A DNA stretch of 64,000 nucleotides, taken from contig JANQJD010000008.1 of assembly GCA_028281845.1 (NCBI GenBank), forward strand, positions 186,001 through 250,000, in the 5' to 3' direction. The stretch is from Rhodospirillales bacterium. Its GTDB lineage: Bacteria > Pseudomonadota > Alphaproteobacteria > Rhodospirillales > Rhodospirillaceae. The notes beneath the pieces are model-generated. The model saw nothing but the letters and a program-made list of their open reading frames with translations. It made no database searches and was not told the DNA's origin. The position numbers were made by a program, and so were the translations under genes. How positions within the stretch are numbered: position 1 is the first letter of the stretch; the number at the start of each line of letters is the position of its first letter. Shown piece after piece: positions 62,030-63,979 of this stretch.

Positions 62030-62060
62030 TCTACTTTACTTATCTACTCTACTTTACTTA
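62030..62060. repeat. tandem repeat, 18-bp period, 1.7 copies
   Basis: TCTACTTTACTTA occurs at 62030-62042 and 62048-62060 with TCTAC between. It lies in the spacer between infC and the oxidase subunit II stop codon. Confidence 0.8.
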
Positions 62061-62588
62061 CTTGACCAAAACCCACCCCTTCATACGGCTGTGCTCCAGA
62101 CCGCAGTACTCGCTACACTGCAGGGCGTAACGTCCACTCGCGCCTGGAGTCAGATTCAGCACAGCAGCTGAACCTGGCACGAGCAGCAAATCAGCCTGTG
62201 CCAGAGGAAAGGTGAAACCATGGACGCTGTCTGTCGTCGCCAGGTGCAGGCGGTAAGTGCCCCCAATTTCTAATTCTAGTACAGGGAAGAATCGGAATCG
62301 TTGTGCCGCTAAATAAACATCTCCTGGTGGTGGATGGACCACTGGGGTCTCCTCTATGAACTCTCCTGTCGAATAAGTAGCACTCATAGAGTCAAGCTGG
62401 GTCAAGAAAGATTCAGCTGTGATCTTGTATGTCACCGGGCGCGGCTCAGGACTCCACACCCACTGCCAGGCCGGCATTACAGAGACAAGAGTCAGAGTGG
62501 CCGTTACCAGGATGATGACGCCCCACCATGAATCAGAGACAGATTTCCGTAAGCGGACACTTTCGACACTTTCCCTCAGGACTCTCAT
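62058..62588 (-). CDS. cytochrome c oxidase subunit II-like CuA protein
   Basis: Electron-entry subunit of a haem-copper oxidoreductase, 176 residues. One N-terminal membrane helix (about residues 20-40) is followed by a periplasmic cupredoxin domain. The binuclear CuA site is complete: His123 in SVHGFTF, then Cys158, Glu160, Cys162, His166 and Met169 in QCSEYCGLEHSRM. The single-helix layout resembles the ba3-type (B-family) subunit II more than the two-helix aa3 type. The start overlaps the subunit I stop by four bases. Electrons would come from a soluble cytochrome c or similar carrier. Confidence 0.88.
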   Translation of the reverse strand: MRVLRESVESVRLRKSVSDSWWGVIILVTATLTLVSVMPAWQWVWSPEPRPVTYKITAESFLTQLDSMSATYSTGEFIEETPVVHPPPGDVYLAAQRFRFFPVLELEIGGTYRLHLATTDSVHGFTFPLAQADLLLVPGSAAVLNLTPGASGRYALQCSEYCGLEHSRMKGWVLVK

Positions 62589-63979
62589 CTATAGCCGCCT
62601 ATACGACGCGAGAGAAGACATTTTAGTGTCATAAAAACAAAGTAAATGCCACCTATTATAGCAATAAAACCGCCAGCTCCATAAACAACCATATAAAAAT
62701 ATTTGACGGCAGTATCGAGATTCTGTTCTAGACCAGCAGTCTTCCGTGGAACTCCCGCAATACCGGCAGCGAACATGCCGACAGAAAGTACAAGCTGTCC
62801 GCCCCCGTAAAGAAGTAGAGACAAGCGTACCGCCTGTGGCGTTGGACATGGCCTTTGCAGCAATGGCAGAAAAAGCGTGAATGTCATACCCATCACTGCC
62901 AGGTTCACGCCGCTAATGACAGCATGGTAATGTGCCGGTATGCGGGTATCACTGACACCCAGAAAATAGCCAAGGATCCCACCCACTGCAAAGAGCAATA
63001 AGGAGAGAGATAATGACAATGCAGAGATATCAGCCCATAACGGACGTACCATAGCCAAACGCATCGCTATGGTAAAAGATAACATTAAGGGTGCAATAGG
63101 TAAACCAAATTTTAAAAGTTGTGTAAACGATACCCTGTGCTCGAGACTGATAACGTCAAATGCCACATAAAAAAGTACCCCTGACAGAGCAACAACCGCC
63201 AAGCTCCACAGCGCACCGATAAACAAGCGGGGTGGGATACCCCACGCTGTGGCCTGTTCAGTCAAGACCCACCAGATCACCAGCATGAGCATCGTATTAA
63301 CAAACTGCAATATATGGCCGCCACCCCAGAAGAGACGCTCATTCGCTAATGCCGGCTCTATCCAAGCCGGCAGGGCTCTCCACGCAAGAAAAAAACAAAC
63401 AAGAGCGATCAGAAATGTCGTGCCGGTAGCAGCGACGCCATGCTCGAAGGGACCAACGGTATTGTTGACGAGATTGCGCAGTAATCTCAGGACAACTCCT
63501 GATATACCCATGGCCAGTCCTCCAAGCCCGGCATAAAACAGAGGATGAGTCAGGACTGGCACGTAATTATTCAGTGACGCTTCTCCTAAATTAAATACTA
63601 CTGATATGAGCATAAGGAATGAACTTATGACAATTAATATAAGAGAAATTCTCCCTAAAATATTCCACTTTGGATTACCTTCAGTAGAACGGGCAGTTGC
63701 GAGCAGAGCTAACGCCCCAAGAATGCTGAGAAACCAGAGGACGATAGAAAAATCAACGTGAGTAATGACAACCTTTGGGAAAAAATCCTGCCAAGGCCAT
63801 GGGAAGAGTTCCCGCAATACAGGTGTGCGAACGATGACAGCCACCAGTGCTAAGAGACCTGCCACAGCCAGGGCGGCCACGGCAAGTCCCACCCAGCCAT
63901 GCAGCTCCCTTGCTAACGCATGGCTCAGCACTTCAGCGGTGCTATCAGAAAAGGCCTTAGACGATCTTTTGTGCTGCAT
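62585..63979 (-). CDS. haem-copper oxidoreductase subunit I, divergent (ba3-like or NO-reductase-like)
   Basis: Membrane catalytic subunit, 464 residues, about 12 helices. Likely haem ligands are His74 (ITHVDFSIVLWF, low-spin haem), and His350 and His352 in IPAHYHAVISG (high-spin and low-spin haem). His222 in WGGGHILQFVN should be the helix-VI ligand of the second metal. In O2 reductases helix VII supplies a His-His pair and helix VI reads HPEV or HPxVY; here the corresponding place seems to be Glu280-His281 (ISLEHRVSF), and the Tyr after His222 is missing. It is therefore clearly in the superfamily, but whether it reduces O2 or NO is open. The operon continues into the CuA subunit. 21 bases remain to the window edge. 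Confidence 0.82.
   Translation of the reverse strand: MQHKRSSKAFSDSTAEVLSHALARELHGWVGLAVAALAVAGLLALVAVIVRTPVLRELFPWPWQDFFPKVVITHVDFSIVLWFLSILGALALLATARSTEGNPKWNILGRISLILIVISSFLMLISVVFNLGEASLNNYVPVLTHPLFYAGLGGLAMGISGVVLRLLRNLVNNTVGPFEHGVAATGTTFLIALVCFFLAWRALPAWIEPALANERLFWGGGHILQFVNTMLMLVIWWVLTEQATAWGIPPRLFIGALWSLAVVALSGVLFYVAFDVISLEHRVSFTQLLKFGLPIAPLMLSFTIAMRLAMVRPLWADISALSLSLSLLLFAVGGILGYFLGVSDTRIPAHYHAVISGVNLAVMGMTFTLFLPLLQRPCPTPQAVRLSLLLYGGGQLVLSVGMFAAGIAGVPRKTAGLEQNLDTAVKYFYMVVYGAGGFIAIIGGIYFVFMTLKCLLSRRIGGYR

Follow-up and report, generated by a model that had tools for sequence, protein, structure and literature searches.

A CuB-less relative of the haem-copper oxidases, with a CuA subunit, linked to genes of haem-A oxidase assembly

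A haem-CuB site is the defining feature of the haem-copper superfamily, and in the NO reductases (NORs) FeB is bound by three His plus a Glu. A 2024 PNAS study is said to name eNOR, sNOR, gNOR and nNOR. NO reductases related to the B family are listed in PMC11388526 as eNOR, gNOR, nNOR and bNOR. Tyr-less 'degenerate B family' oxidases (ba3-a1) are described in the accessible part of PMC6431628, where the account given of them makes no mention of a loss of CuB ligands. As for oxidase assembly, S. aureus and B. subtilis need CtaM (DUF420) for their aa3-type oxidases to be active (PMC9145763); proposals for its action are CuB assembly or copper export (PMC9145763; PMC13344008). The literature searched holds no report of a COX1-like partner for CtaM, nor any description of a CuB-less, CtaM-linked haem-copper branch; that search covered work other than the 2024 study of eNOR, sNOR, gNOR and nNOR, and the family described below may overlap with nNOR or gNOR.

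The gene pair, its fold and its descent

The window (the whole stretch of DNA that was analysed, 64,000 nucleotides) carries a pair of genes for a subunit I and a subunit II of haem-copper type, whose features are collected in Table 1. The start of subunit II overlaps the stop of subunit I by 4 bases. Subunit I matches Pfam COX1 (E=4e-12) and subunit II matches COX2 (E=9e-7). Against NCBIfam, subunit I of the window found no matching model, even at E=1, and its relatives found none close to its cut-off. A PDB search with a single sequence gave no match, whereas a family-profile search succeeded; a plasmid search gave no match, no 16S gene turned up in the window genome, and a genome scan found one named relative, the MAG 'Rhodospirillales bacterium isolate PL23a_bin.50', 91% identical. 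Besides this pair, the window genome (1.33 Mb, 18 contigs, 97% complete) encodes a single COX1-family protein, the subunit I of an A-type oxidase, and it also carries A-type COX2 and COX3, Cox11, CtaA and CtaB. Directly upstream of the pair, outside the window, lies a DUF420 gene (CtaM family, E=7e-37; contig C17, 250001-250459), followed further upstream on the same strand by surE, serS, tatC and a TatA/B gene.

Table 1. Features of the gene pair (positions in the window).
Feature	Position	Strand	Basis and conservation
Subunit-I-like protein, 464 aa ('pseudo-COX1'), ba3-like fold, without CuB ligands	62585..63979	(-)	ORF, Pfam COX1, AlphaFold2, Foldseek
His74, helix II, predicted low-spin haem ligand	63758..63760	(-)	61/61; aligned with ba3 helix II His
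His222, helix VI, sole survivor of the CuB ligand set	63314..63316	(-)	61/61; aligned with ba3 His233
Gln225, invariant neighbour of His222	63305..63307	(-)	61/61; GHxxQ common to NorY-like clade
Phe270-Tyr271, positions of the CuB His-His pair in ba3 and NorY-like enzymes	63167..63172	(-)	alignments
Glu280-His281, start of the next helix, not conserved	63137..63142	(-)	Glu 25/61, His 16/61; model helix limits
His350, helix X, predicted proximal ligand of second haem	62930..62932	(-)	invariant, 61/61
His352, helix X, predicted low-spin haem ligand	62924..62926	(-)	invariant, 61/61
CuA-bearing subunit II, 176 aa	62058..62588	(-)	ORF, Pfam COX2
Subunit II His123, the first His of the CuA set	62220..62222	(-)	sequence; kept in six relatives
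CuA loop C158-S-E-Y-C162-G-L-E-H166-S-R-M169 of subunit II	62082..62117	(-)	sequence; kept in six relatives

Compared with a sister genome, dN/dS was ~0.24 for subunit I (0.045/0.19) and ~0.18 for subunit II (0.048/0.26). Both genes are intact and under purifying selection, and look functional; the pair has been retained in this way in a genome of 1.33 Mb. Two intact genes under purifying selection rule out a chance pattern. Active-site loss and the small genome would suit a decaying pseudogene or a functionless relic of a ba3 oxidase, yet this explanation was rejected on the dN/dS values and is scarcely credible given that haem ligands and neighbours are conserved throughout the family. Elsewhere in the family, single in-frame stop codons were seen in the match region of four otherwise conserved members (L008, on G018:C32; G342:C7; G368:C94; and L128, on G425:C94), for which mistakes in the assembly, artefacts of the start region or decay could be responsible.

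An AlphaFold2 model of subunit I, built on a 29-row alignment, reached a pLDDT of 91 and a pTM of 0.92. Its best Foldseek matches were the T. thermophilus ba3 oxidases (TMq 0.77-0.79); aa3 and cbb3 oxidases scored lower (mostly 0.65-0.75), as did NORs (0.60-0.64), so that the predicted fold is ba3-like. The Pfam COX1 match, the model, the Foldseek results and the presence of H74, H350 and H352 in 61/61 family members all place the protein in the haem-copper superfamily. A quick maximum-likelihood tree (77 rows) gathers the family into a single clade (SH-aLRT 100); next to it stands a NorY-like clade (96), and ba3 (one row) falls outside (90). Since the tree is of a quick kind and its outgroup branches are long, the order of branching beyond the family is provisional; on this reading the nearest relatives would be the B-family NorY-like (sNOR-type) clade, suggesting descent from the B family. 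Close grouping with proven O2 reductases was not found in this tree, the NorY-like clade intervening between the family and ba3. The label 'NorY-like' rests on gene order and on the account in PMC6431628 of a sister clade of B oxidases that lacks the Tyr; these rows read GHxSQQIN in helix VI. At two loci (L176:6034-16381 and L177:7144-16754) NorY-like enzymes, which keep CuB and lack the Tyr, share a cluster with genes for SCO, CtaB and a CuA subunit II, the first cluster including CtaA too, and in both cases the contig also holds a CuB-less gene at a distance of ~5-6 kb.

The first-pass annotation had credited subunit II with all CuA ligands, and H123, C158, E160, C162, H166 and M169 are indeed present. 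A CuA subunit II, placed beside subunit I as expected of an sNOR (NorSY), directly follows it in 7 of the 30 closest loci (the window and six relatives) and is not adjacent in the other 23; wherever it is adjacent, the motif H...CxxxCxxxHxxM is intact (7/7). Outside its own family, the window subunit II is nearest to B-family/NorY-type subunits II (31-39% identity). That seven genomes conserve the CuA subunit points to genuine electron flow; this is easier to reconcile with an enzyme than with a protein acting purely as a chaperone, and counts against the maturation role proposed below.

Loss of the CuB ligands in subunit I

The first-pass annotation had listed His74, His222, His350 and His352 as kept in subunit I. 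All four proved invariant, and they are exactly the His residues that are invariant among the 61 aligned family members. Three of them are haem ligands by homology (two for the low-spin haem, one for the second haem). With four invariant His only, three of which serve haems, at most one CuB His can remain, and this holds without any need of a helix-VII alignment. A conserved three-His CuB site thus appears excluded for the family as a whole, and the three CuB His kept in sNOR (NorSY) are not found in it. Also borne out was the reported absence of the His-Tyr pair after His222: the window reads GHILQF in place of H-x3-Y, and the fourth position after H222, F in the window, is F in 55, V in 3 and Y in 3 of the 61 members.

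A third claim, that the helix-VII His pair of O2 reductases appears here as Glu280-His281, had the wrong register. The HH of T. thermophilus ba3 (family profile alignment) and that of 13 NorY-like B-family rows (joint alignment) both fall opposite residues 270-271. Counted from the helix-VI His, the pair stands at 49/50 in ba3; the distances in the window protein are 48/49 to residues 270/271 and 58/59 to 280/281. In the AlphaFold2 model helix VII spans 250-273 and the next helix 279-292. Glu280-His281 as a CuB replacement was accordingly discarded, the register being wrong and the positions unconserved. The alignments and the model indicate that both helix-VII His are missing, rather than one of them exchanged for Glu: across the family the pair reads FY, LY, IH, TM and similar, not HH.

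Some of these positions vary within the family. Position 271 is Tyr in 31/61 and His in 17/61 members, the remainder having other residues, and position 228 is Asn in 31/61 and His in 24/61. The His variants at both positions fall in beta/gamma-type rows, and the surroundings of H222 may differ between parts of the family. Many beta/gamma-type members (e.g. L119-L123, L126-L127 and L133) have His at both 228 and 271 in window numbering, and a different three-His cluster with H222 is possible in those members. The combination is absent from the window's own order.

No Cys, Met, Asp or Glu is invariant across the 61 rows, and the region of helices VI-VII holds no invariant acidic residue. A metal site made of three His, of two His or of His plus an acid is not conserved among the 61 members, and an FeB site of cNOR/qNOR type was not found either, the region having neither a conserved second or third His nor an invariant Glu. 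An ordinary ba3-type O2 reductase that builds its CuB site from other residues could account for the Pfam COX1 match and the ba3 fold. Such an enzyme is a very remote prospect in a family with four invariant His, in which the Tyr after H222 is missing in 58/61 members and Cys, Met, Asp and Glu are never invariant. With the CuB site and the redox Tyr lost, standard reduction of O2 or NO is not expected. The fallback offered by the first-pass annotation, a degenerate or novel oxidase, suits a protein that derives from the B family, has a CuA subunit and departs from the standard active site.

Neighbours and co-occurrence

Within the same family and order, 45 of 61 genomes yielded relatives. G051, one of the 45, carries a B-family enzyme only and was left out, giving 44 genomes with the CuB-less gene and 17 without. 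Additional members were drawn from class and phylum samples. Among the 30 closest loci, DUF420 adjoins the gene in all 30, CtaB lies within 1.5 kb in 24, and an A-type COX2, COX1 or COX3 lies within 1.5 kb in 19. CtaA was found inside the 1.5-kb flanks of 9/28 phylum-sample loci (other proteobacteria, with flanks often cut) and of one locus in the class sample (L085). At L179 a SCO-COX2-COX1-CtaB region is found upstream of the gene, whose ORF shares 4 bases with the CtaA ORF that follows.

Co-occurrence across the 61 genomes follows the same partners. CtaA is present in 44/44 genomes with the gene vs 5/17 without (Fisher p = 3.6e-9, shared ancestry ignored), and DUF420 in 40/44 vs 2/17 (p = 6e-9, shared ancestry ignored). 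Within one genus, G008 has both the gene and CtaA, and G027 has neither. Association is not strict: G015 and G032 have A-type COX1, CtaA and DUF420 with no CuB-less gene, and G016, G039 and G043 are CtaA-positive and also lack it. Assembly of aa3 is therefore possible without the gene, which is not strictly needed. At L186 (G015:C2, 8506-11042), DUF420-CtaB-CtaA adjoin an A-type cox operon and are otherwise in place, but the CuB-less gene is missing from between them, a natural deletion. Cox11 is absent from some gene-bearing genomes and present in others, a distribution that rules out a simple replacement of Cox11. In one DUF420 protein (L034:10002-10460(-)), several His look conserved across relatives (PH, AH, YH, SH, RH, YH), which suggests haem or copper binding.

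The distribution of NirK bears on the main proposal of the first-pass annotation, a CuA-type NO reductase, for which it had advised a search for nirK. We found no NirK match in the window genome, and NirK does not track the family (2/44 genomes with the gene vs 1/17 without, p = 1), so that a NirK link was dropped. B-family descent, the CuA subunit and the NorY-like nearest clade speak for that proposal, but as ancestry only; neither a conserved metal site nor a link with NirK was found. A reductase of the sNOR/eNOR/gNOR kind, with an altered active site and still converting NO to N2O, would be in keeping with a nearest clade of a kind proposed as NO reductases, with the GHxxQ that this clade and the family have in common after the helix-VI His, and with the CuA subunit in seven genomes. 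We nevertheless consider it improbable: beyond H222 there is no conserved second metal ligand and no invariant acid in helices VI-VII, it is CtaA and DUF420 rather than NirK that associate with the gene, and most members have no adjacent electron-entry subunit.

A possible role in building haem-A oxidases

The explanation that we favour, at a rough probability of 45%, is that the pair is a CuB-less, B-family-derived relative of the haem-copper oxidases working in the making of the ordinary aa3 oxidase. We infer its haem content, electron flow and maturation role from homology, linkage and co-occurrence, the last two being distinct from function. By homology, H74 and H352 would hold a low-spin haem and H350 a second haem, with no CuB. 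Electrons would enter from cytochrome c via CuA in the window lineage (most relatives have no linked CuA subunit) and reach the low-spin haem and the second haem, on whose open side H222 and Q225 presumably lie. Linkage and co-occurrence suggest that this redox-active, haem-holding pseudo-COX1 would partner DUF420/CtaM, CtaB and CtaA and hand on electrons, or haem O/A, in the course of making the haem-A oxidase. It might supply electrons, deliver haem or assist the insertion of CuB. As a tentative and rather doubtful extension, the widespread CuB-less family, CtaM and the haem O/A synthases could form a dedicated maturation complex for haem-A oxidases, in which the protein might act, for example, as electron donor of CtaA or as a carrier handing haem to COX1.

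The same evidence touches on two further explanations. The pair could be a non-catalytic two-haem electron carrier, linked to cytochrome c or quinol, that reduces for instance haem A synthase or serves a copper-handling step. Both haem ligand sets are invariant, CuA is intact in seven genomes, CtaA and CtaB rank with the most frequent neighbours, and we know of no identified electron donor of bacterial CtaA; yet many bacteria run CtaA without the gene, as do five CtaA-positive relatives, and this explanation, unlikely in our estimation, overlaps with the maturation role. The predicted open haem with an invariant distal His and Gln has a globin-like composition, as one might expect of a sensor or regulator that detects O2 or NO at a haem and tunes oxidase expression, with H222/Q225 as its distal pocket. 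No signalling domain, fused or adjacent, was seen at the locus of the window genome, and the CuA subunit of some lineages would be left unexplained, which makes a sensor quite improbable.

Should such a maturation complex exist, an oxidase-derived enzyme would have been recruited for building another oxidase. A conserved branch (44/61 related genomes plus sampled other proteobacteria) that keeps both haem sites and has dropped CuB would be a natural experiment on what the haem-copper fold can do in its absence, and its tie to CtaM, CtaB and CtaA makes the function of CtaM and the partners of haem A synthase testable. Genes of this kind, caught by COX1 models or loose NOR models, are not to be counted as oxidases or NO reductases.

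Among known systems, the NorY-like B-family enzymes (sNOR type) come nearest, with the same GHxxQ instead of GHxxxY in helix VI, a CuA subunit II as in the window lineage and, in L176 and L177, CtaB and SCO neighbours; they differ in keeping the helix-VII His pair, which the window family has lost, and in being ~100 aa longer. eNOR, gNOR, nNOR and bNOR (formerly CuANOR) are, like the window family, derived from the B family. T. thermophilus ba3 has the same fold (TMq up to 0.79), the same haem-ligand His positions and a CuA subunit, but the window subunit I is only ~19% identical to it and lacks the CuB ligands except H222, as well as the cross-linked Tyr. cNOR and qNOR have the same superfamily fold, with a weaker match (TMq 0.60-0.64), and likewise no redox Tyr in helix VI; unlike them, the window protein has a single His at the metal site, and CuA instead of a cytochrome c or quinol subunit. 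The oxidase assembly factor CtaM (DUF420), like CtaA and CtaB of the haem A pathway, belongs to an unrelated protein family, and their likeness to this system is one of conserved neighbourhood and co-occurrence.
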